A DNA stretch of 46,753 nt. It comes from Candidatus Nitrosopelagicus sp. (lineage in GTDB: Archaea; Thermoproteota; Nitrososphaeria; Nitrososphaerales; Nitrosopumilaceae). The notes beneath the pieces are model-generated. The model saw only the letters and a program-made list of their open reading frames with translations. It was not told the DNA's origin and ran no database searches. Each line of letters opens with the position of its first letter. Within the stretch, counting starts at the first letter, position 1. This document shows, one piece after another, positions 29,010-41,932 of this stretch. Both the position numbers and the translations under genes were made by a program. The stretch covers positions 1 to 46,753 of the forward strand of contig JAOMCQ010000008.1 in the NCBI GenBank assembly GCA_028345095.1, read 5' to 3'.

Positions 29010-30137
29010 GTGTTACAAAGGGATAATCTAAATAACTTAGTTAGAGGAACGACATTTTTCCAACATTCTGGAATAGCAATTACATTTGTTTTTATGCCAA
29101 TTATTGCAAGCCTTGTTGCGGAATCTGTTTTTGAGATTGGAATAATTGTTGCATCATTTGCGTTTGCACAAATTCTAACTGAGACATATTTTGGTCGTAT
29201 GTCAGATAGAAAAGCAAAACGATTACTATTCATAAGAGTAGGTTTTATTTTATGTGCAATTACATTTGGTTTGCATTATTTTGCAGACAATACAACATAC
29301 CTAATCATAGCGAGATTAGGTGCAGGAATTGCATCAGGAATTATGATTCCACCAATGTTAGCATACGCATACGAGGCAGGAAAAGGAAAATCCAAGGTTG
29401 CATCAGTAATATCATTTCATGCTTTAGGATGGATGGCAGGCATAGTTGCAGCAGGACTAGCTAACGATGAAAAATTAATTTTTGTGGTGAGCAGTTGTTT
29501 TTTCATCATAGGATTTATCATTTCATTGAAACTTCCTAAAATACAAACGGAAAAAATTGTAGAAAAAGGAATAATCAAGAAGATCATTGTAAAAAACAAA
29601 TTTCTTTTTTCATCATTACTAATTCGCCATATTGGTGCTGCTGCTGCATGGACAGTTTTACCCATCATGTTAATGGAGTATTTTGGTGCAGAATTATATC
29701 AAGTTTCAATGATATATGTAGCAAATACACTAACTGCATTTCTCGTAATGAATTTGATGTCAAAGAGAATTCAGATTCAAAATATAACAAAATTCAAGAT
29801 TGGAATAGGAATGACGGTCATAGTATTTGTTGGATTAGCATTAATTACAGATTGGTGGATGGCATGGCCATTCATGGCCATAGTTGGATGTTCATGGGCA
29901 TTTTTGTTTATTGGAGGAAACTTCCATCTGATGGAAAACAATCCAAGATCAACATCGACAGCAATTTTTAGCTCTACATTAGCAATTTCCACAGTTATTG
30001 GTCCAGTGATTGCAGGAATCATTGCATACTATACAGACTATACAGCAGTCATGATTTTTGCAGTTGTAGTTACACTAACAGCATTCATAATTTCAACTAA
30101 AATGAAGTCAGAAAAACCTAACGAAGTCCCCATTTAG
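29010..30137 (+). CDS. Major facilitator superfamily transporter
   Basis: This 375-residue polytopic protein has about 11-12 hydrophobic helices in two halves. The loop between helices 2 and 3 reads FGRMSDRKAKR, the MFS signature (G-x-x-x-D-R-x-x-R/K). Charged loops separate helix pairs, with a longer central loop near residue 175-200. Substrate is unknown; drug or metabolite efflux are options. The start is a GTG; an out-of-frame ATG lies 2 nt earlier and stops quickly. Its 3' end overlaps the convergent ABC permease gene by 20 bp. No operon partner is seen on its strand. Confidence 0.85.
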   Translation: MLQRDNLNNLVRGTTFFQHSGIAITFVFMPIIASLVAESVFEIGIIVASFAFAQILTETYFGRMSDRKAKRLLFIRVGFILCAITFGLHYFADNTTYLIIARLGAGIASGIMIPPMLAYAYEAGKGKSKVASVISFHALGWMAGIVAAGLANDEKLIFVVSSCFFIIGFIISLKLPKIQTEKIVEKGIIKKIIVKNKFLFSSLLIRHIGAAAAWTVLPIMLMEYFGAELYQVSMIYVANTLTAFLVMNLMSKRIQIQNITKFKIGIGMTVIVFVGLALITDWWMAWPFMAIVGCSWAFLFIGGNFHLMENNPRSTSTAIFSSTLAISTVIGPVIAGIIAYYTDYTAVMIFAVVVTLTAFIISTKMKSEKPNEVPI

Positions 30138-30876
30138 TCATAACTTTATCTTCTAATTTTTTAAAGACAAAGCCATCAATTAGAATTCCAATTCCCATTA
30201 TTACAAGCATCATTGCAATAACTTGAGATACATCATTTAGTTGCCTTCCAACATTTAACAAGAATCCAAGACCCAAAAATGAGAAAAGAAGTTCTGCACC
30301 AATTACACCTCTCCATGCAAACGCCCATCCTTGTTTGAATCCAGAAATCATATATGGAAATGCAGCAGGTATGAGGATTGTCGTTACCAGTTGACCGCCT
30401 TTAGCACCCATATTTCGTGCAGCTTCAATAAATGACGGATCGATATTTTTCACTCCAGTGTACGTATTGATTGTGACAGCAAAAATTGCACCAATTGCAG
30501 TCACAAAGATTATTCCAGAATCAGACAGACCAAACCATAAGATTGCAAGTGGAACCCAAGCTACAGAAGGAATTGATTGTAATCCAAGTACAAGGGAACC
30601 AATAGTTTGATTTACAGTCTCAACACGAGCCATGAATATTCCAAGTAACATTCCACCACCAATTGCAATGGATAATCCAATTACCAAACGCCACATGCTA
30701 GTTCCTATTCCATAAAACAGACTTCCATCAGATATACCATAAAGTAGATCTTCTCCAACTTCTATAGGAGAAGGAAATATGTTATCAGGCCAGATTTCTG
30801 CAGAATCAATTCCTTGCCAAACAATTATGATTAGTACATAAAATGCAATTTTTTTACCTAAGAGATTTGTTTTCAT
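30118..30876 (-). CDS. ABC transporter permease, NitT/TauT family
   Basis: The 252-residue inner-membrane permease has about six helices and the EAA cytoplasmic loop (FIEAARNMGAKGGQLVTTIL) that contacts the ATPase. It is of the SsuC/TauC/NrtB type, with VPLAILWFGLSD as a typical piece. It is the third gene of an SBP-ATPase-permease operon on the minus strand, 11 bp after the ATPase. Such systems import sulfonates, taurine, nitrate, bicarbonate, or thiamine precursors. Which one is not decidable from sequence alone. Confidence 0.9.
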   Translation of the reverse strand: MKTNLLGKKIAFYVLIIIVWQGIDSAEIWPDNIFPSPIEVGEDLLYGISDGSLFYGIGTSMWRLVIGLSIAIGGGMLLGIFMARVETVNQTIGSLVLGLQSIPSVAWVPLAILWFGLSDSGIIFVTAIGAIFAVTINTYTGVKNIDPSFIEAARNMGAKGGQLVTTILIPAAFPYMISGFKQGWAFAWRGVIGAELLFSFLGLGFLLNVGRQLNDVSQVIAMMLVIMGIGILIDGFVFKKLEDKVMTKWGLR

Positions 30877-30887
30877 TGAATAAACAC

Positions 30888-31643
30888 CTATTTTGGCCCC
30901 TGATGCCTTAATGCAGCAAGAATTTGTTTTTCAAATTTTCCTAAATTTTCATCTTCTGCAACACGAGGTCTTTTGTAATCAATATCAAGAGATTTTTTTA
31001 CAACTGAAGGTCTGTGGCTAAATACTGCAACACGTGAACCAAGTACAGCTGCCTCAGGCACATTATGCGTTACAAATATGATGGTTTTTTTCGTTTTTTG
31101 CCAAATCATTTGCATTTCAACCAAAAGTAAATCTCTAGTCTGAGAATCAAGGGCTGCAAAAGGCTCATCCATTAATAATACATCAGGATCCATCACAAGT
31201 GCACGTGCAATAGCAACACGCTGTTTCATTCCAGTAGATAATTGATACGTGTATGAATTTGCAAATTGAGATAATTGCATCATGTCAAGATATCTTTTGG
31301 ATATATCATGACGTTTTGTCTCCGGTATACCTGCAACTTTCAAACCATATTCAACATTATCTTCTACAGTTAACCATGGAAATAATGCACCTTCTTGGAA
31401 TACCATTATTCTATCAGGCCCAGTGTTAACAAGTTTTTTTCCATCAAGCAATATTTCTCCTTCGTCGGGTTTTTCCAATCCTGCCAAAATTCTAAGAAAA
31501 GTTGATTTACCACATCCAGATGGACCGACTATACAAACAAACTCCCCATCATCAACGGTGAGATTCACTCCACCAATGGCTTTGAGAGGTTTGCCATCAT
31601 GTTGAAAATATTTTACAATATTTTTTGCTTCTATCTTACCCAT
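30888..31643 (-). CDS. ABC transporter ATP-binding protein, NitT/TauT family
   Basis: This cytoplasmic ATPase of about 251 residues has Walker A GPSGCGKST, the Q-loop in MVFQEGALFPW, the signature LSTGMKQRVAIARAL, Walker B VLLMDEPFAALD, and a switch His in FVTHNVPEA. The signature is LSTGM rather than LSGGM, a small change. I prefer the ATG at 31643 (MGKIEAKN), overlapping the binding-protein stop by 8 nt, over an in-frame ATG five codons earlier. No C-terminal regulatory domain is present. Confidence 0.93.
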   Translation of the reverse strand: MGKIEAKNIVKYFQHDGKPLKAIGGVNLTVDDGEFVCIVGPSGCGKSTFLRILAGLEKPDEGEILLDGKKLVNTGPDRIMVFQEGALFPWLTVEDNVEYGLKVAGIPETKRHDISKRYLDMMQLSQFANSYTYQLSTGMKQRVAIARALVMDPDVLLMDEPFAALDSQTRDLLLVEMQMIWQKTKKTIIFVTHNVPEAAVLGSRVAVFSHRPSVVKKSLDIDYKRPRVAEDENLGKFEKQILAALRHQGPK

Positions 31644-32667
31644 TATGATTTTCCTCATTTGATGTCACTGATATATTTTCATGATAAAAAATTCCATCTA
31701 GTGTGTAACCATCACGTCCAAGATATCCAAGTGTATCAGCACGTTCAGCAAATGTATGTACAGAATTTTCTAATGGTTCAGATGTAATTATTATGTTTGA
31801 GAATGATTTTTCCACAATATTTTCAGGTAATGTTCTTCCCATGTAACTTTTCAAAAATTCATTGTAAAGTTTTTTGGATTCATCAGGATGATTATTTATC
31901 CATTGAACAGTTTGTTTATTTGCATTTATCCATTTTTTAATTATTTCAGGATTTTTTTCAATGTAATCAGATCGACCTATTAACAATACAGATGAAAATT
32001 GATTTTCTGGCCAAAATTCATTTTCATCAAACAAACGAATTCCATCCAACTCTTCAACTAGCATAGTTGCCCAAGGTTCAGGAACCCATGCACCATCAAT
32101 GTCACCCTTTGCAAAGAGGGTGTAAATATCAGGATTTGCAATATTCAAGACAAATATATCGCCTCCTTTTTCAGCAGGCTTTAACCCATTTTCTGCAAGA
32201 TAATGACGAAGTGACACATCTTGTGTGTTACTAATTTGAGGAGCAGCAACTCTCTTTCCAGAATAATTTTCAATTAATTCCAGTCCAGAATTCTTTTGTA
32301 TCACATAACTTGCACCACCATTTGCTGCACCAGCGAGAATTTGTAGGTCATTACCATCAGACTTAAGAAAACCATTGATTACAGGTCCAGGTCCAACATA
32401 TGCAATGTCAACGGAATTTGAAAAAATTGATTCAATTACTTGAGGACCACTATCAAATATTTTGACTTCTATGTCTAAGTCATCATCTAGATTATCGGCA
32501 AAAGTTTGAGTTTCCATTCCTACAATTGGAACTGCATGAAGAATACTTGGAAAAAATGCCACACGTATTTTGTTTTGAGAATCATCAATAGAAGCTTGAG
32601 TCAAGCCTATGAGAGCGATAATTCCAATAATTGCAATTGCAATGCCAACCAGATACGGGATTTTCAT
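31636..32667 (-). CDS. ABC transporter substrate-binding protein (SsuA/THI5/NMT1-like)
   Basis: The 343-residue exported protein has an N-terminal signal anchor (about residues 5-25) and no lipobox cysteine, so it is probably held to the membrane by its uncleaved helix. The type 2 periplasmic-binding fold is visible: IRVAFFPSILHAVPIVGMET, VDIAYVGPGPVINGF, YSGKRVAAPQ, GDIDGAWVPEPWATML. The WVPEPWA stretch is usual for nitrate/sulfonate/taurine-like binding proteins. It is the first gene of the operon and a TATTTAAC box lies about 26 nt before the ATG. The true ligand is unknown. Confidence 0.88.
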   Translation of the reverse strand: MKIPYLVGIAIAIIGIIALIGLTQASIDDSQNKIRVAFFPSILHAVPIVGMETQTFADNLDDDLDIEVKIFDSGPQVIESIFSNSVDIAYVGPGPVINGFLKSDGNDLQILAGAANGGASYVIQKNSGLELIENYSGKRVAAPQISNTQDVSLRHYLAENGLKPAEKGGDIFVLNIANPDIYTLFAKGDIDGAWVPEPWATMLVEELDGIRLFDENEFWPENQFSSVLLIGRSDYIEKNPEIIKKWINANKQTVQWINNHPDESKKLYNEFLKSYMGRTLPENIVEKSFSNIIITSEPLENSVHTFAERADTLGYLGRDGYTLDGIFYHENISVTSNEENHNG

Positions 32668-32800: not shown

Positions 32801-33976
32801 ATGAAACAAAAATCAATACTTGCATTTTCAGGAGGACTAGATACATCAGTAGTTGTAAAATATATGCAAGACATACATGATATGGATGTAATTACAGTAA
32901 CAGTCGACGTAGGTCAAGGAGATGACAATAATAAAATTGCAAGTAAGGCAAAAAAACTAGGAGTTAAGAAACATTACAATATTGATGCAAAAAAAGAATT
33001 TGTTACAGACTATATTTTTCCAGCAATCAAGGCTAATGCGTTATATCAAAAGAAATATTGTCTTGCAACAGCATTGGCAAGGCCATTAATTGCACACAAA
33101 GTACTTGATATTGCAAAAAAAGAAAAAGTTTCATCATTAGCACATGGTTGTTCAGGTAAAGGAAATGATCAAGTACGTTTTGATAATACATTAAGAGCAG
33201 GATCTAATCTTCCAATCATCGCTCCAATTCGTGATATGAATTTAGACCGTGAAACTGAATTAAAGTTTGCAAAAAAACATGGAATTGAGATAGACAATGT
33301 TGCAAAAAAATTCAGTATTGATCAAAATTTATGGGGAAGGGCAATAGAAGGCGGAGTTTTAGAAAATCCATTCAATGAACCACCCGATGATGTATTCATT
33401 TGGATTAAGACAAAGAATTTACCTGAAAAGCCTACCTACTTGAAAATCAAATTCAATAAAGGAATACCAGTTGAAGTAGATGGTAAAAAAATGCCTCCAG
33501 TAAAATTAGTAGAATATATAAATAAAAAAGCAGGTTCCCAGGGTGTAGGAATAATTGATCATATAGAAGATAGAGTGGTTGGAATAAAATCTCGAGAAGT
33601 CTATGAAACACCAGCTGCAATTTGTCTAATTGAAGCACACTCAGATCTTGAGAAAATGGTACATACAAAACATGAAACAAAATTCAAGACATTGGTTGAC
33701 GATGAATGGGCATGGTTAGTTTATTCAGGATTATGGGATGATCCATTGAGAAAAGAATTGGATGAGTTCATAGAACAGGCTCAAAAACGTGTAACAGGAA
33801 CTGTAAAACTAAAACTTCACAAAGGTAGTGTCAGGGTTGTCGGAAGGGAATCAAAATATTCTCTGTATAGTCACGACATAGCCACATATGGAAAAGATTC
33901 AACATTTGATCAAAAATTAGCAAAAGGATTTGTTGAATTATGGGGAATGCAGTCAACAGAAGCTAATAAATTCTAG
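32801..33976 (+). CDS. argG: Argininosuccinate synthase
   Basis: ArgG joins citrulline and aspartate using ATP. The 391-residue protein has the P-loop-like LAFSGGLDTSVVVKYM at the N-terminus, AHGCSGKGNDQVRF near residue 115, and APIRDMNL. Length is normal. It is the first gene of the long plus-strand arginine/lysine cluster and lies 20 bp before the LysW carrier gene. The argininosuccinate lyase (ArgH) and carbamoyltransferase (ArgF) genes are not in the window. Confidence 0.96.
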   Translation: MKQKSILAFSGGLDTSVVVKYMQDIHDMDVITVTVDVGQGDDNNKIASKAKKLGVKKHYNIDAKKEFVTDYIFPAIKANALYQKKYCLATALARPLIAHKVLDIAKKEKVSSLAHGCSGKGNDQVRFDNTLRAGSNLPIIAPIRDMNLDRETELKFAKKHGIEIDNVAKKFSIDQNLWGRAIEGGVLENPFNEPPDDVFIWIKTKNLPEKPTYLKIKFNKGIPVEVDGKKMPPVKLVEYINKKAGSQGVGIIDHIEDRVVGIKSREVYETPAAICLIEAHSDLEKMVHTKHETKFKTLVDDEWAWLVYSGLWDDPLRKELDEFIEQAQKRVTGTVKLKLHKGSVRVVGRESKYSLYSHDIATYGKDSTFDQKLAKGFVELWGMQSTEANKF

Positions 33977-33996: not shown

Positions 33997-34164
33997 ATGA
34001 ATTGTCCAGAATGTGACGCAAATATGAAAATCCCAGAAGATGCCGCTGTAGGTGAAATTGTTTCTTGTGGAGATTGTGGTGCAGACTACGAAATCTCAAA
34101 AAAAGAAGGTTCCAATATTGAGTTAAAAGAAGCAGAAACCGTTGGCGAAGACTGGGGAGAGTAA
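33997..34164 (+). CDS. lysW: LysW1: amino-group carrier protein ending in EDWGE
   Basis: The 55-residue acidic protein begins MNCPECDANMKIPEDAAVGE and has a zinc-binding CPxC...CxxC (Cys3, Cys6 and the CGDC pair). It ends in the conserved carrier tail EDWGE. In this family the C-terminal Glu accepts the amino group of glutamate or 2-aminoadipate, so the intermediates stay protein-bound through the LysX-Z-Y-J-K steps. The next gene, its ligase, starts on the base after the stop. The gene is too short for usual ORF cut-offs and is easily missed. Confidence 0.93.
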   Translation: MNCPECDANMKIPEDAAVGEIVSCGDCGADYEISKKEGSNIELKEAETVGEDWGE

Positions 34165-35022
34165 TTGCAGAAAATTTGCATAGTATTTGATAGGTTAAGA
34201 ACCGAAGAAAAACTACTGCAAAAAAATGCAGAAGAACTAGGTTATGAAACATCTATGATTGATGCAAAGATCACTAGTTTTGATACAGACAGTAAACCTG
34301 AGAATTTTGAATTTGGAGATGTTGTTTTAGAACGTTGTGTTAGTTATTACCGCGGATTACATTTCACAGCATGTTTAGAGTTCATGGACATACCAGTGAT
34401 TAACAAATTTGATGTTGCAAATACTTGTGGAAATAAAATGATAACATCAATGTTGTTAAAGAAAAATAATATACCTACACCAAAGACTTATTTTTCTTTT
34501 TCAGCAGAGGCAGCATTAGAAAATTTTGAAAAAATTGGATATCCATTAGTTATAAAACCAATAATTGGAAGTTGGGGAAGAAGTGTTATGCCAATTAAGG
34601 ATAAAGATACAGCAGAAGCTGTAATTGAAAATAGGCAAGTAACAGATGGACCTCAAGATAGAATTTATTATTTACAAGAAATGATTGATCGTCCACCACG
34701 AGATATTCGTGTAATTACCGTAGGAGACCAAGCTATATCAGCGATGTATAGAAAATCATCAGGAGGTTTTAAAACAAACATTGCACTAGGTGCAGACCCA
34801 GAACTTTGTGAAATTACAAAAGAGATTGAAGACTTGTGTGAAAAAACATCTAAAGCAGTAGGGGGAGGAATTCTAGGAATTGACTTAATGGAAGATAAAA
34901 AGAAAGGTCTAGTTGTACATGAGGTGAATAATACTGTGGAGTTTAAAGGATTAGTAAAAGTCTCAAAGAAAAATATTCCAAAAGAGATGATCGACTATGC
35001 AGCTAGTAATATCAAGGGATAA
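34165..35022 (+). CDS. argX: LysX1/ArgX: ATP-grasp ligase for LysW, probably glutamate-specific
   Basis: This 285-residue ATP-grasp ligase of the LysX/ArgX/RimK group attaches an amino acid to the LysW C-terminus. ATP-grasp pieces include PLVIKPIIGSWGRSVMPI (about 130), RPPRDIRVITVGD (about 175) and HEVNNTVEFKG (about 255). The specificity region reads FKTNIALGADPELC, unlike the NTxxGG form of LysX2 and (from memory) of Thermus LysX. With argG adjacent, this favours glutamate and the arginine route; that is inference. The start is a TTG directly after the LysW1 stop. Confidence 0.88.
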   Translation: MQKICIVFDRLRTEEKLLQKNAEELGYETSMIDAKITSFDTDSKPENFEFGDVVLERCVSYYRGLHFTACLEFMDIPVINKFDVANTCGNKMITSMLLKKNNIPTPKTYFSFSAEAALENFEKIGYPLVIKPIIGSWGRSVMPIKDKDTAEAVIENRQVTDGPQDRIYYLQEMIDRPPRDIRVITVGDQAISAMYRKSSGGFKTNIALGADPELCEITKEIEDLCEKTSKAVGGGILGIDLMEDKKKGLVVHEVNNTVEFKGLVKVSKKNIPKEMIDYAASNIKG

Positions 35023-35062: not shown

Positions 35063-36109
35063 ATGAAAGTAGGAATTGTAGGAGCCTCAGGATATGTAGG
35101 AGGAGAAGTTCTCAGATTACTTCTCAGTCATCCTAAAGTTGAAGTTTCAATGGTAACATCGAGACAACATGTAGGAAAATTTCTACACAAAGCTCAACCT
35201 AGTCTAAGAGGTTTTACTGATTTGAAATTTTCAGAACTAGATTATGAGAAAATGAGTGATAATTGCGATGTAGTTTTCACTGCGGTTCCACATGGAACAG
35301 CAACTGAGATTGTAAAAGCATTGTATGATAGAGGAATGAAAATTATTGATTTAAGCGCAGATTATCGTTTGCATAATCCAGAGGATTATGGAAAATGGTA
35401 CGGCTGGGAACATCCACATCCAGATTATTTAGAAAAATCAGTATTCGGAGTACCAGAATTACATAGAGAAGAAATTAAAAAATCACAATTGGTTTCATGT
35501 CCAGGATGCATGGCAGTAACTTCAATGCTTGCATTGAATCCATTAATTAAAAATAATTTAATTGATGAAGAACATATTGTAGTTGATTCAAAAATTGGTT
35601 CTTCAGGTGCAGGTGCAGGTGCAGGAACAGCACATGCAATGCGTGCAGGAGTTATCAGACCATACAAACCAGCAAAGCATAGACATACAGGAGAAATTGA
35701 ACAAGAATTAAGTCAAACAGCAGGTAGGAAAATCAAAGTATCAATGAGTCCACATGCAGTAGATGTAGTTAGAGGAATTTTATGTACAAACCATACATTC
35801 CTTAAGAAAGACATTGATGAAAAAGAACTTTGGAAAATATACAGAGCAGAATACAATGATGAACGATTTATCAGATTAATTAGAGATAAAGATGGTCTGC
35901 ATAAATTCCCAGACCCAAAATTCTTAGTTGGTTCAAATTTCTGTGATATTGGATTTGATTTAGACAGAGATAACAACCGATTGGTTGCACTATCGGCATC
36001 AGATAACCTGATGAAAGGCGCAGCAGGTTCTGCAATTCAAAACATGAACGTCATGGCAGGATTTGATGAGTTCGAAGGAATTATGTATTCCCCACTAACA
36101 CCAGTATAA
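35063..36109 (+). CDS. lysY: LysW-glutamyl/aminoadipyl-phosphate reductase (LysY/ArgC)
   Basis: The 348-residue NADPH-dependent semialdehyde dehydrogenase has the Rossmann start VGIVGASGYVGGEVLRLL, the catalytic cysteine in SCPGCMAVTS near residue 150, GSSGAGAGAGTAHAMR, and an HRHTGEIEQEL block (reads KHRHTGEIEQEL). Only one such reductase is in the cluster, so it probably serves both LysW-bound glutamyl- and aminoadipyl-phosphate, as in Sulfolobus. The lysZ gene follows 3 bp after the stop. Confidence 0.93.
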   Translation: MKVGIVGASGYVGGEVLRLLLSHPKVEVSMVTSRQHVGKFLHKAQPSLRGFTDLKFSELDYEKMSDNCDVVFTAVPHGTATEIVKALYDRGMKIIDLSADYRLHNPEDYGKWYGWEHPHPDYLEKSVFGVPELHREEIKKSQLVSCPGCMAVTSMLALNPLIKNNLIDEEHIVVDSKIGSSGAGAGAGTAHAMRAGVIRPYKPAKHRHTGEIEQELSQTAGRKIKVSMSPHAVDVVRGILCTNHTFLKKDIDEKELWKIYRAEYNDERFIRLIRDKDGLHKFPDPKFLVGSNFCDIGFDLDRDNNRLVALSASDNLMKGAAGSAIQNMNVMAGFDEFEGIMYSPLTPV

Positions 36110-36112
36110 TAG

Positions 36113-36913
36113 ATGATTACAATAAAAATTGGCGGGAGTGTAGTAGATAATTTACATCCATCAACAATAGTTGATATCAAAAAAGTTGTGGAACAAGAGG
36201 GCGTCATACTAGTTCACGGTGGAGGTAAAGAAGTGACAAAAGTTACAGAGCAATTAGGTAAAGAACCTAAATTTGTCGTATCACCTAGTGGGATAAAGAG
36301 TCGATATACAGATAAAGAAACTTCTGAGATTTTTACAATGGTAATGTCAGGAAGAATAAACAAGGCAATTGTTCAGATGTTACAAAAAAATGGAATCAAT
36401 GCCATTGGATTGTCAGGTATGGACGGAAAAACAATTGAGGCCAATAGGAAAAAGAAATTAATGATTATGAATGAAAAAGGAAGAAAACAGGTAATTGATG
36501 GCGGATATACAGGTAAAATTTCAAATGTAAATTCAGATTTAATCAAAACTATCATGGATAAAGGATACACTCCAGTAATTTCTCCAATTGCAATAAGTGA
36601 GGAGTCTGAATTTCTAAATGTTGATGGAGATAGGGCAGCGGCTAATGTAGCAGGACATGTCAAGGCAGATAAGGTGTTATTTATTACAAATGTAGACGGA
36701 TTGCTCATGGAAGACAAATTGGTTGAAAAATTATCATTAGAAGAGGCAAAAGAAATAATGCCAAAAATTGGATTTGGTATGGAAAAAAAGATTCTAGCTG
36801 CAACAGAAGCACTTGAAATGGGAGTTACAGAAGCATTAATTGCAAATGGTCAAAAGGAGAATCCAATTTCATCAGCTATAGCACATAACAATTGTACGGT
36901 GATAACTAAATGA
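36113..36913 (+). CDS. lysZ: LysW-linked acetylglutamate/aminoadipate kinase family (LysZ/ArgB)
   Basis: The 266-residue amino-acid kinase phosphorylates the side carboxylate of the LysW-bound substrate. Family motifs are IKIGGSVV at the start, VLVHGGGKEV (reads ILVHGGGKEV), GLSGMDGKTIEA near residue 98, NVDGDRAAANVAG near 170 and FITNVDGLL. The lysine in IKIGG and the glycine-rich loops match ArgB/LysZ. It overlaps the aminotransferase start by 4 nt (ATGA). One kinase for both pathways is likely. Confidence 0.94.
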   Translation: MITIKIGGSVVDNLHPSTIVDIKKVVEQEGVILVHGGGKEVTKVTEQLGKEPKFVVSPSGIKSRYTDKETSEIFTMVMSGRINKAIVQMLQKNGINAIGLSGMDGKTIEANRKKKLMIMNEKGRKQVIDGGYTGKISNVNSDLIKTIMDKGYTPVISPIAISEESEFLNVDGDRAAANVAGHVKADKVLFITNVDGLLMEDKLVEKLSLEEAKEIMPKIGFGMEKKILAATEALEMGVTEALIANGQKENPISSAIAHNNCTVITK

Positions 36914-38085
36914 GTGAAGATAAATTTCTTGGGAATCTTTATCAAAGATTTCCAGTAACAATAGAAAAAGGCTTAGGCGCACATGTATGGGATACCGATG
37001 GTAAGGAATACATTGATTGTATGGGAGGCTATGGAGTTGCATTACTTGGACACCAAAATGAAAGAGTTACCAATGCATTGAAAGCGCAACTTGAAAAAAT
37101 TATTACAGTTCACAGTTCACTTTACAGTAAAACTCGTGAAGAATTTTTGGAAAATCTTTTCAAAGTTGCTCCAAAAAATTTGTCACAAGTTCATTTGAAT
37201 AATAGTGGTGCAGAAGCAGTTGAAGCTGGAATGAAATTTGCACGTAAATTTACAGGAAAAACCGAGATGGTTGCAATGAATGGTTCATACCACGGAAAAA
37301 CACTAGGTGCACTTTCAATAACATTTAATCCAAAATACAGAAAGGCGTTTAAACCACTTGTAGAAAAAGTATCATTTTCACCTTTCGGGGATATCGAAAA
37401 GCTTCGTGAAACAGTTAATGATCAAACAGCATTTATTATTTTAGAACCCATTCAAGGAGAGAGTGGAATTCATGTTGCTCCTGATGGATTTTTACAAGAT
37501 GTCAGAAAATTATGTGATGAAAAAAATATTCTATTAATTTATGATGAAATACAGGCAGGACTAGGACGTACCGGAAAGATGTGGGCACATCAACATTGGG
37601 ATACCGCACCAGACATACTATGTTTAGCAAAAGGAATTGCAGGAGGAGTACCAATGGGTGCGACATTAGTCAAATCAGAAATTTTAGATTGTATCTCAAA
37701 GGGAGAGCACTCATCAACATTTGGAGGAAATCCATTATCATGTGCAGCAGGAACCGCTACAATGCAGGCTTTGACACAAGATAAACTAGTGGAAAATTCT
37801 GCAAGTATGGGAAAATTATTTAGAGAAGGGTTAGACAAATTAAAAGAAAAACATCCAGTGATTAGAGAGGTTCGAGGTAAAGGATTGATGATAGGAATTG
37901 AATTAAAATTTGAAGTTAGAGATATACTAATGGAAGGTATTGAAAAAGGATTACTTTTACTATATTCTGGAAGAAATATCTTAAGATTACTTCCTCCATT
38001 AGTAATAACACATGATGATGTAATGAAATCTTTACAAATACTAGATGAGTTATTTACTAATGAGGAAAAGAGAAAAAATGGCTAA
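36910..38085 (+). CDS. lysJ: LysW-ornithine/lysine aminotransferase (LysJ/ArgD)
   Basis: This 391-residue class III PLP aminotransferase converts the LysW-bound semialdehyde to LysW-lysine or LysW-ornithine. It shows MGGYGVALLGHQN, NNSGAEAVEAGMKFARK, FILLEPIQGESGI-like (IILEPIQGESGIHVAP), IYDEIQAGLGRTGKMWA, and the PLP lysine in CLAKGIAGGVPMGA (about residue 240). Length is normal for ArgD. The stop overlaps the start of the Lrp regulator by 8 nt, so the regulator is in the same operon. Confidence 0.94.
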   Translation: MSEDKFLGNLYQRFPVTIEKGLGAHVWDTDGKEYIDCMGGYGVALLGHQNERVTNALKAQLEKIITVHSSLYSKTREEFLENLFKVAPKNLSQVHLNNSGAEAVEAGMKFARKFTGKTEMVAMNGSYHGKTLGALSITFNPKYRKAFKPLVEKVSFSPFGDIEKLRETVNDQTAFIILEPIQGESGIHVAPDGFLQDVRKLCDEKNILLIYDEIQAGLGRTGKMWAHQHWDTAPDILCLAKGIAGGVPMGATLVKSEILDCISKGEHSSTFGGNPLSCAAGTATMQALTQDKLVENSASMGKLFREGLDKLKEKHPVIREVRGKGLMIGIELKFEVRDILMEGIEKGLLLLYSGRNILRLLPPLVITHDDVMKSLQILDELFTNEEKRKNG

Positions 38086-38612: not shown

Positions 38613-39794
38613 ATGACTGATCCGAATCACTATGCAGACATGTATAACTCATATGAAAAGACTCCAAAAAAAATTCGAGTGTTAGATTCAACTCTACGAG
38701 AAGGTGAACAACATCCAGGAGTTTCGTTTACAAACAAACAACGAATTCAGATAGCATGGATGCTAGATTATTTTGGCGTTGATCAAATTGAAATTTCACC
38801 GGTTGTGTCACCAGATCATAAAGAAGCAACAAAAACAATCATTCAACAAGGACTAAGAGCAGATATTGTTTCACATGGAAGAGCATTAAGACAAGATATT
38901 GATACATCACTAGCATGTGATGCAAAATGGGTAGCTGCATATCTAGGAATATCAGATATTCATCTAAAAGATAAATTACGAATTACAAGAGAAGAAGCGT
39001 TAGAACGTGCAGTGGATACAGTAACTTATGCAAAAGATCATGGATTGAAAATTAGATTTACAGTAGAAGATGGAAGTAGAGCAGAACCTGAGTTTTTGTT
39101 AAAATTATGTAAATCGATTGAAGATGCAGGAGTTGATAGAATTAGTTTACCAGATACAGTTGGAATAATGCGACCAATTGGAATGTATAATTTTGTTAAG
39201 AAAGTGCGTTCTGAAATAGAAACACCACTTGATGTTCATGTACACAATGATATTGGATTTGCATTAGCAAATGCATTTTCAGCATGTGATGCAGGAGTTG
39301 ATCAAATTCATACTACGATAGATGGAATTGGAGAAAGAACAGGTATACCAGCGTTAGCAGAAGTAGCAGTTGCTTTAACATATCTCTTCAAATCTCCAAA
39401 TGATTTTAGATTGGATATGTTAGCAGATCTTTCAAGACTAATAGAACAATACACCACCATTCAACCATACGATTCAAAACCAATTGTCGGATCATCAGCT
39501 TACAAGCATAAAGCAGGAACACATTTAGCAGCAATTCTCAATAATCCAGCAGCCTATGAGCCAATCCCACCAAGAGTAGTTGGAAATAGAAGGAAGATAG
39601 TATTCGGAGAATTAGCAGGTAAAACAGGCGCAGGGTATCTCATGTCATTATTAGGAATAAAGAAAGATCCTGAAACTGCAAAAAATGTTGCAGCAGGGTT
39701 AAAAAATCTTAGAATGGGGGATGTTTTAGAAATACCACTAGAGGATCGCCTTGAACGTAAAATAATTAAGGATGAAAAAAGAGAGGAAAAATAG
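38613..39794 (+). CDS. Homocitrate synthase-type acyltransferase (LysS-like)
   Basis: The 393-residue protein is a DRE-TIM metallolyase (IPMS/homocitrate synthase group). The barrel opens with VLDSTLREGEQHPGVSF, and the metal-binding HVHND box is at LDVHVHNDIGFALANAF (about residue 209). GIGERTGIPALAEVA and a C-terminal SSAYKHKAGTHLAAI are typical of homocitrate synthase and shorter isopropylmalate synthases. It lacks the LeuA regulatory domain. Neighbouring LysW, LysX and LysK point to homocitrate synthase for the aminoadipate lysine route rather than leucine or citramalate synthesis. The downstream isomerase and dehydrogenase genes are not in the window. Confidence 0.85.
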   Translation: MTDPNHYADMYNSYEKTPKKIRVLDSTLREGEQHPGVSFTNKQRIQIAWMLDYFGVDQIEISPVVSPDHKEATKTIIQQGLRADIVSHGRALRQDIDTSLACDAKWVAAYLGISDIHLKDKLRITREEALERAVDTVTYAKDHGLKIRFTVEDGSRAEPEFLLKLCKSIEDAGVDRISLPDTVGIMRPIGMYNFVKKVRSEIETPLDVHVHNDIGFALANAFSACDAGVDQIHTTIDGIGERTGIPALAEVAVALTYLFKSPNDFRLDMLADLSRLIEQYTTIQPYDSKPIVGSSAYKHKAGTHLAAILNNPAAYEPIPPRVVGNRRKIVFGELAGKTGAGYLMSLLGIKKDPETAKNVAAGLKNLRMGDVLEIPLEDRLERKIIKDEKREEK

Positions 39795-39800
39795 GTAAAA

Positions 39801-39968
39801 ATGGCAAATTGTCCCGAATGTGATGCAAACATAGGTATTCCTGACGATGCAGTAGAAGGCGAAATTGTCACCTGTCCAGATTGCGGCGCGAGTTTTGAAC
39901 TTAGCAAAGCATCCGAAGGTTTTGAGTTAAAACCAGCTCAAACAGTCGGAGAGGATTGGGGACAGTGA
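39801..39968 (+). CDS. LysW2: carrier protein paralogue ending in EDWGQ
   Basis: This second 55-residue carrier begins MANCPECDANIGIPDDAVEG, with CPxC and CPDC zinc cysteines and the TVGEDWG tail. Its last codon is CAG (39963-39965), so the C-terminal acceptor Glu of LysW is Gln here. The reading frame is continuous from the ATG, and the stop TGA overlaps the GTG of the next gene. It is 6 bp after the homocitrate synthase gene and directly before LysX2, so it should be the lysine-side carrier. How a Gln tail would be loaded is unclear (see findings). Confidence 0.92.
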   Translation: MANCPECDANIGIPDDAVEGEIVTCPDCGASFELSKASEGFELKPAQTVGEDWGQ

Positions 39969-40810
39969 CCGGCAAAATTTCAATCCTTTACGATACAATC
40001 CGTCTTGAAGAAAAATTACTAATTGAATCTGCAAAGAAAAATGATATTTCAATAGACATGGTAGATTGTAAGAAATTGTTTTTGGATTTGAATGAAAAAA
40101 ATTGTTTAGAGGGACCAGTATTACAAAGATGCGTTAGCTATTATAGAAATTTGCACTCAACTGCAGCTCTTGAAGGTCAAGGTGCCAAAGTAGTGAATTG
40201 TTTAAACACAGGAATCTTTGCTGGAAATAAATTATTCACACATATGTTGTTGCAGAAAGCAGGAGTTCCAACACCAGATGCAACAGTTGCATTCTCAAAA
40301 GATTCCGCATTAGATGCATTGAAAAAACATGGATTTCCAAAAATTATCAAGCCAACAGTAGGTAGTTGGGGAAGAATGGTTTCAAAATTGAATGACATGG
40401 ATGCTGCAGAAGGAATTATAGAAGGAAGAGAAGCAATGTATCCAATCCACCATATTCATTTTTTAGAAGAATTTGTACAACGTCCACCACGAGATATTCG
40501 TGTGATTGTCATAGGAGATAATGTTGCAGCTGCAATATATAGAAATTCAGGAGATGGAAATTGGAAAACAAATACACATCTCGGGGGATCAGCAGAAACA
40601 TGCAAAATTACTAATGAACTTGAAGAAATATGCATTAAAGCAAAAAATGCAGTATTTGGAGACATTGTAGGTATTGATCTAATGGAAAGTAACGAGAAAG
40701 GAATGGTTGTACATGAAATAAACAATACAACAGAATTTAGAAATGTTGTTAGAGTCACAGGAGTAGACATTCCAAAAATAATGTTAGAATATCTAAAGGA
40801 GTTAACATAG
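39965..40810 (+). CDS. lysX: LysX2: ATP-grasp ligase for LysW, probably aminoadipate-specific
   Basis: The 281-residue ATP-grasp ligase is paralogous to LysX1. It has PKIIKPTVGSWGRMVSKL, RPPRDIRVIVIGD and VHEINNTTEFRNVV. Its substrate region WKTNTHLGGSAETCKIT and the ending TGVDIPKIMLEYL resemble Thermus LysX as I remember it, so 2-aminoadipate is the likely substrate. Position between homocitrate synthase and LysK agrees. I take the GTG at 39965 (4-nt GTGA overlap with LysW2) rather than the TTG at 39956. Confidence 0.88.
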   Translation: MTGKISILYDTIRLEEKLLIESAKKNDISIDMVDCKKLFLDLNEKNCLEGPVLQRCVSYYRNLHSTAALEGQGAKVVNCLNTGIFAGNKLFTHMLLQKAGVPTPDATVAFSKDSALDALKKHGFPKIIKPTVGSWGRMVSKLNDMDAAEGIIEGREAMYPIHHIHFLEEFVQRPPRDIRVIVIGDNVAAAIYRNSGDGNWKTNTHLGGSAETCKITNELEEICIKAKNAVFGDIVGIDLMESNEKGMVVHEINNTTEFRNVVRVTGVDIPKIMLEYLKELT

Positions 40811-41932
40811 ATGGATGAACATTTAGAAACTTCTAGATATGCAATCAAAACTTTGGAAAAAGCATTACGAATCTACACTCCATCATTAAGTGAAAAAGCC
40901 TTAGCTGATTTTCTTGCAGACAGATGTGATGATTTAGGATTTAGAGATATTCATCAAGATGAAGTTGGGAATTTAATTGCAACTAAAGGTTCAGGGGAAC
41001 CAAAGATCATGTTATGTGGGCATATGGATGTAGTTCCAGGAAAGATCAAAGTTAGAATTGAAGGCGATATGCTACACGGTAGAGGTGCTTCAGATGCAAA
41101 AGCACCATTAATTGCAATGTTATTTGCTGCGGCAAGTATAGAAGAAAATCAAGGAACAGTAACATTTGTTGGAGCAGTTGATGAAGAGGGTAATGCAACA
41201 GGGATAAAGAATTTGGTAAAAAATAAGCCTAATGTTGATTATGCAATTTTTGGAGAACCAAGTAGTATTCAAAAAGTTACAATCGCCTACAAGGGACGTT
41301 TAGCAATAAATCTCAGAGTGAATGTAAAAGATAGTGCTCATGCAAGCGCTCCATGGTTAGCAAAAAATGCAATAGAAGAAATATCATCAGTTGCAACTGA
41401 ATTGAAAAATGAGTTAGAAGGAGGTCAAGAAGAAAAAAGTAAGGGAATGATGCTTACTGCAACTCTTACGGAAATTCGTGGTGGTACAAGCCATAATGTT
41501 ACACCAAAAGAATGTGTAGCAACATTAGACATTAGAATTCCAGTTGACATGAATTGTAATGATATTGAAGAGAAGATTACCAGAATAGTTAATGAAATAT
41601 CAACAAAAAGAGAGATTGAAGTTTTGTATTCAGTAATAGATGAGACAGAACCATTTGAGGCAGCACATAATTCGCCATTAGTAAGAGCATTAACATTGTC
41701 AGTGCTAGATGTAGAAAAGAAAAGACCAATGTTAATTAGAAAAACAGGTACAGGAGACATGAATGTTATAGGAAATCAGTTAAAGATACCAGTAATTACA
41801 TACGGCCCAGGAGATCCTCATGAGGCACATACAATTGATGAAAAAGTTTCAATTGATGAATTTGTCAAAGGAATAGAAATTCTAAAAAAATCACTATACC
41901 ATTTAAAAAGACTACATGACAGAACGAAATAA
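40811..41932 (+). CDS. lysK: LysW-lysine/ornithine hydrolase, M20 family (LysK/ArgE-like)
   Basis: This 373-residue M20 metallopeptidase releases lysine or ornithine from LysW. The metal and catalytic residues are seen in LCGHMDVVPG, HGRGASDAKAPL, AVDEEGNATG and IFGEPSS. A lid/dimer domain (about 175-285) carries ASAPWLAKNAIEEI, and the late metal His is probably in the GDPHEAHTIDE segment. It starts on the base after the LysX2 stop. It is the only such hydrolase in the cluster, so it likely finishes both pathways. Confidence 0.92.
   Translation: MDEHLETSRYAIKTLEKALRIYTPSLSEKALADFLADRCDDLGFRDIHQDEVGNLIATKGSGEPKIMLCGHMDVVPGKIKVRIEGDMLHGRGASDAKAPLIAMLFAAASIEENQGTVTFVGAVDEEGNATGIKNLVKNKPNVDYAIFGEPSSIQKVTIAYKGRLAINLRVNVKDSAHASAPWLAKNAIEEISSVATELKNELEGGQEEKSKGMMLTATLTEIRGGTSHNVTPKECVATLDIRIPVDMNCNDIEEKITRIVNEISTKREIEVLYSVIDETEPFEAAHNSPLVRALTLSVLDVEKKRPMLIRKTGTGDMNVIGNQLKIPVITYGPGDPHEAHTIDEKVSIDEFVKGIEILKKSLYHLKRLHDRTK

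Follow-up and report, generated by a model that had tools for sequence, protein, structure and literature searches.

A C-terminal glutamine in the LysW carriers of ammonia-oxidising archaea suggests an additional activation step in lysine and arginine biosynthesis

The LysW/ArgW carriers described from Thermus, Sulfolobus, Thermococcus and Natrinema are zinc-ribbon proteins with CxxC pairs and an EDWG tail, encoded next to LysX/ArgX and together with the same set of pathway genes, and their acceptor is a C-terminal Glu. The ligases differ in a specificity motif, for which Gly-Phe is reported in the ArgX of Sulfolobus and Asn-Thr in its LysX (PMC10433800). A terminal Gln is known from another small protein, Pup, as Mycobacteria and others encode Pup with this residue and Dop then deamidates it, a step that has been described as the chemical equivalent of its depupylation (PMC8223512, PMC8599861). 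Here we describe a LysW protein, LysW2, that resembles the known carriers in all of the features above and differs from them in having Gln at the position of the acceptor Glu. In the open-licence literature we found no biochemical work on Gln-tailed LysW, and the string EDWGQ was absent from the open-licence papers searched, although the residue may still have been noticed in some alignment.

LysW2 is encoded in a stretch of 46,753 nucleotides from Candidatus Nitrosopelagicus sp. (contig JAOMCQ010000008.1), hereafter the window, within an arginine/lysine cluster with the order ArgG-like gene, LysW1, LysX1, ArgC, LysZ, ArgD, Lrp regulator, homocitrate-synthase-like gene, LysW2, LysX2 and LysK (Table 1). 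Both LysW1 and LysW2 score above the cut-offs of the curated NCBIfam model for the LysW/ArgW carrier (NF041070) and of the Pfam model PF21344. The LysW2 product has 55 amino acids (MANCPECDANIGIPDDAVEGEIVTCPDCGASFELSKASEGFELKPAQTVGEDWGQ); its four cysteines form the two CxxC pairs of a LysW-type zinc-ribbon domain, the EDWG motif occupies residues 51-54, and the gene is linked to LysX and to other genes of the pathway. It departs from the carrier family at the acceptor Glu, since the last codon is CAG, and this Gln is conserved in relatives. The original prediction, that LysW2 ends in EDWGQ and LysW1 in EDWGE, was thus confirmed in the window DNA, where the DNA pattern of the tail is found twice against 0.03 expected occurrences. 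A sequencing error or a private mutation is ruled out as the source of the Gln tail by its conservation across relatives. The stop codon of LysW2 (TGA, 39966-39968) overlaps the LysX2 gene, which starts with GTG at 39965.

Table 1. Genes of the arginine/lysine cluster in the window and the terminal codon of LysW2
Feature	Position	Strand	Basis and remarks
ArgG, argininosuccinate synthase-like, adjoins LysW1	32801..33976	+	Sequence and position; adjacency to LysW1 conserved in relatives
LysW1, carrier with standard tail EDWGE (GAG TAA)	33997..34164	+	NF041070, PF21344
LysX1, ArgX-type ligase	34165..35022	+	TIGR02144, 311.1 bits; EFKGL signature (Gly as in glutamate-specific ArgX)
ArgC/LysY reductase, common to both branches	35063..36109	+	TIGR01850, 417.9 bits; single gene in cluster
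LysZ/ArgB [LysW]-aminoadipate/glutamate kinase, common to both branches	36113..36913	+	NF010662, 310.6 bits; single copy in 13/13 genomes
ArgD/LysJ aminotransferase, common to both branches	36910..38085	+	TIGR00707, 439.5 bits
Homocitrate synthase-like protein, upstream of LysW2	38613..39794	+	PF00682, PF22617
LysW2, amino-group carrier protein with C-terminal Gln	39801..39968	+	NF041070, 90.7 bits (cut-off 75); PF21344, 51.2 bits (cut-off 27)
CAG codon, terminal Gln of LysW2	39963..39965	+	Last base is the G of the LysX2 GTG start; C/G state compared across relatives
LysX2, LysX-type ATP-grasp ligase	39965..40810	+	TIGR02144, 311.6 bits (cut-off 275.6); EFRNV signature (Asn as in aminoadipate-specific LysX)
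LysK, M20-family [LysW]-lysine/ornithine hydrolase	40811..41932	+	TIGR01902, 273.4 bits (cut-off 163.1)

LysX2, the ligase partner of LysW2, matches the LysX family model and carries the GSWGR motif and the conserved ATP-grasp residues when aligned to the solved LysX/ArgX structures 3vpd and 3vpb. The signature position in both ligases was located by alignment with solved LysX/ArgX, and read by the rule of PMC10433800 the two signatures make LysX1 the probable glutamate ligase of the arginine branch and LysX2 the probable aminoadipate ligase of the lysine branch. The homocitrate synthase-like protein does not reach the curated cut-off of any named NCBIfam model for homocitrate synthase. Two further observations concern the surroundings of these genes. 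At 39951-39956 the Glu codon of the LysW2 tail is always GAG in Nitrosopumilaceae, giving an invariant GAGGA inside LysW2, and this sequence, just ahead of the LysX2 GTG, looks like a ribosome-binding site for LysX2. Adjoining the arginine cluster, on the minus strand at 30118-32667, are three genes that look like an ABC transporter (permease, ATPase and substrate-binding protein).

The nearest named records to LysW2 are from marine Candidatus Nitrosopelagicus and other Nitrosopumilaceae. In a first set of about 100 LysW2 sequences, picked by similarity to the window LysW2, every tail ended in CAG-TGA. The alignment of LysW2 last residues proposed with the original prediction was extended to 96 distinct LysX2-linked loci from Nitrosopumilaceae, where Gln was found in 91 and Glu in 5 (G147, G148, G113, G169 and G161), and the Gln-tail pattern was present in 277 of 400 genomes of the order. 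A GAG codon in relatives had been named as grounds for rejecting the Gln tail; it does occur in this small minority, yet Gln is the majority state and the tail stands. The five Glu-tailed loci keep the overlap as GAGTGA, and Gln is also found without the overlap, as CAATAA, in G526 and G550, so Gln is not imposed by the GTGA overlap, as the original prediction held, and the overlap is ruled out as its cause. Mapped on the LysX tree, the base deciding between Gln and Glu (C or G) shows at least 2 changes, against at least 14 at the silent third position of the Gly codon before it, a rough comparison as the tail base counts one specific transversion. Since the tail base changes little while the neighbouring silent base drifts, this fits with selection keeping Gln at the LysW2 tail in Nitrosopumilaceae. 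Two single records from this survey deserve mention: in a Nitrosopumilaceae genome of 3.2 Mb (G005, L298) the LysW search gave LysW1 and no LysW2, and a contig binned as Candidatus Thioglobus (L057, JAKUUR010000053.1, 1-3308) carries a marine thaumarchaeal LysW2-LysX2 locus and is probably mis-binned.

The original prediction treated the Gln tail as an oddity of one gene, a view that has to be given up, as it is a widespread variant found in LysW1 as well as in LysW2. In family f3, one genus (G433, G526 and G550) has a single, Gln-tailed LysW, having lost LysW1 and kept both LysX1 and LysX2, and another genus (G578, G646 and G648) has two carriers that are both Gln-tailed, as has G444. LysW1 with Gln and LysW2 with Glu are combined in G635, G652, G656, G688, G721 and one contig of G726, and the reverse arrangement is seen in G493 and G719. 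In family f2, g23 has Gln in LysW2 and Glu in LysW1 and G618 has Glu in both, and the members read of families f4, f67, f68, f71, f74 and f75 have Glu only; the tail counts per family come from samples. Farther away in the phylum the sole LysW is Gln-tailed in 13 genomes (G257, G271, G278, G285, G299, G354, G359, G379, G264, G292, G364, G440 and G367) and Glu-tailed in their relatives G305, G339, G311 and G332, and G343 has one carrier of each kind. Members of the same genus differ between Glu and Gln by a one-base change (G367 against G332; G359 and G379 against G305 and G339). Parsimony on the LysX tree, a quick FastTree reconstruction with identical sequences pooled and several of the genomes metagenome-assembled, put the number of Glu/Gln switches at 15 or more, and 10 independent pairs lay on supported branches. 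Two matches to the Gln pattern, one in G277 and a second one in G433 that ends in TGG rather than a stop codon, were chance occurrences and not LysW.

The genomes of G433, G526 and G550 are each a single contig, 99% complete, and contain one LysW, Gln-tailed, alongside the two LysX genes and a complete pathway. Protein searches found no second LysW in Gln-only genomes, including closed genomes at 99% completeness, and the EDWGE tail pattern was absent from G433, G444, G526, G550 and G578, where patterns allowing Glu or Gln gave the same counts as patterns allowing Gln only. ArgJ, a marker of the acetylated arginine route, and DapB, a marker of the diaminopimelate lysine route, were both absent in 12 of the 12 genomes tested, most of them Gln-only; among the controls ArgJ was present in 10 of 14 and DapB in 11 of 14. 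Because some complete genomes hold only Gln tails and the sampled alternative routes are absent, the Gln-tailed LysW is almost certainly functional. A decayed or regulatory protein that loads no substrate, with the Glu-tailed LysW doing the work, would be conceivable in the window, where LysW1 ends in Glu; the gene is intact, though, its tail is conserved throughout Nitrosopumilaceae and many genomes hold no LysW other than a Gln-tailed one, which makes this reading, also raised in the original prediction, highly improbable and in effect refuted. Decay as such is ruled out by the sole-carrier genomes. In G433, G526 and G550 (L204-L206) the one carrier apparently serves both the arginine and the lysine branch, with ArgX and LysX.

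A gamma-amide cannot simply be phosphorylated like a carboxylate by an ATP-grasp ligase, which calls for either some conversion of the terminal residue or another chemistry of attachment. In archaea, Gln-tRNA is generally made by way of Glu-tRNA(Gln), and this intermediate of the indirect pathway, if used at the CAG codon, would leave a fraction of LysW2 with Glu, as would slow spontaneous deamidation; a recycled, catalytic carrier need not be fully active and a small active pool could be enough. Such a pool is nevertheless very unlikely to be the whole explanation, as Gln seems to be kept by selection and a sole carrier present mostly as inactive protein would be wasteful.

No residue of the ligase or of the hydrolase tracked the tail convincingly. 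The best LysX column agreed in 4 of the 10 pairs and was a conservative Ile/Leu swap, and in LysK nothing convincing was seen among about 5 informative pairs, a comparison of low power. The LysX fold, the GSWGR motif and the conserved residues occur with both tails, the motif in 152 of 153 Gln-paired and in 64 of 86 Glu-paired LysX rows. A single closely similar LysK was found in each of the 13 genomes in which LysZ was counted, with weaker paralogues in some, and in complete Nitrosopumilaceae the Glu-tailed and the Gln-tailed carrier of one cell share one LysZ and one LysK. No accompanying amidase gene was recognised among the neighbourhood genes annotated by homology to window genes.

There are two ways in which LysX could load a Gln tail by itself. 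The first, and the main alternative, is that the terminal residue receives the substrate on its alpha-carboxylate. As a member of the RimK alpha-L-glutamate ligase family (TIGR00768), LysX is homologous to the alpha-glutamate ligases RimK, MptN and CofF and could in principle use this group. Other members of the RimK family make alpha links. With the side chain irrelevant, Glu and Gln would be exchanged freely with no need for an extra enzyme. However, characterised LysX and ArgX differ from RimK, MptN and CofF in using the gamma-carboxyl of the LysW Glu, the link in Thermus, Sulfolobus and Thermococcus being described as such (PMC10433800), and a haloarchaeal ArgW E54A mutant is an arginine auxotroph even though it retains the alpha-carboxylate. 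The conserved residues and the GSWGR motif are moreover those of standard LysX, and the retention of Gln in Nitrosopumilaceae amid drift at silent sites is left unexplained, which together make alpha ligation unlikely. Alternatively, LysX itself may phosphorylate the amide oxygen of Gln, as happens with citrulline in ArgG, after which ammonia would be displaced by the amine, or Glu would first be formed by hydrolysis. We know of no ATP-grasp ligase of the LysX family that activates a Gln amide. This route needs no further gene and thereby fits both the easy exchange of Glu and Gln and the lack of a recognised accompanying amidase, and the chemistry has a proposed precedent in the action of Dop on PupQ (PMC8599861). 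On the other side, no LysX residue marks the Gln-paired enzymes, and we regard direct activation of the amide as improbable, more so than alpha ligation.

We lean, if only modestly, towards deamidation of the terminal Gln to Glu before loading, which would make the Gln-tailed LysW a working carrier stored as an amidated pro-form. LysX or ArgX would then join aminoadipate or glutamate to the gamma-carboxyl in the same way as in standard LysW, and the loaded carrier would be processed by the shared LysZ, LysY, LysJ and LysK. We favour this reading because both tails occur with the same LysX features and without a column that tracks the tail, because in Nitrosopumilaceae the same downstream enzymes have to work on both carriers, most simply if both end up with Glu, and because close relatives swap Glu and Gln by one base, as is the case for Pup. 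A hidden deamidase, as with Pup, was one of the options in the original prediction; the mosaic distribution, the shared downstream enzymes and the lack of co-variation in LysX make this hypothesis the best supported of them. Possibly the deamidase is LysK, by analogy with Dop, as product release by LysK already involves hydrolysis of an amide at the gamma-carbonyl of the LysW C terminus. This is the leading candidate and the most speculative part of the model, since enzymes of the M20 family usually recognise the amino acid that leaves, and LysK may not hydrolyse a bare amide.

Taken together, we consider it likely that the only lysine/arginine carrier of ammonia-oxidising archaea and several other Thermoproteota operates through an undescribed activation of its C-terminal Gln, either by a LysW deamidase (a Dop analogue, possibly LysK) or by direct activation of the amide by LysX. 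If so, current descriptions of the lysine and arginine pathways lack a step in archaea that rank among the most abundant of ocean and soil, and this step is skipped in published models that transfer the Sulfolobus scheme to Nitrosopumilus (PMC6038301). Should deamidation be wrong, LysX would form its linkage by a non-textbook chemistry in these lineages, a result of equal interest, and the natural Glu/Gln pairs inside one genus make the question directly testable.

The conversion of a terminal Gln before ligation would provide a second, unrelated case of the PupQ/PupE type, placed in central biosynthesis. Like LysW, the Pup of Actinobacteria is a small protein whose terminal residue is encoded as Gln or as Glu depending on the lineage. 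Its ligase needs the gamma-carboxylate, and Dop performs both the deconjugation of Pup-lysine and the deamidation of Pup-Gln. In Pfam and NCBIfam, LysW2, LysX2 and LysK showed no homology to Pup, PafA and Dop, their matches being to the LysW, ATP-grasp and M20 families. LysK is an M20 hydrolase and not glutamine-synthetase-like as Dop is, and a deamidase role for it would be by analogy only. Pup and LysW also differ in function, as Pup tags lysine side chains of proteins and LysW carries biosynthetic intermediates.
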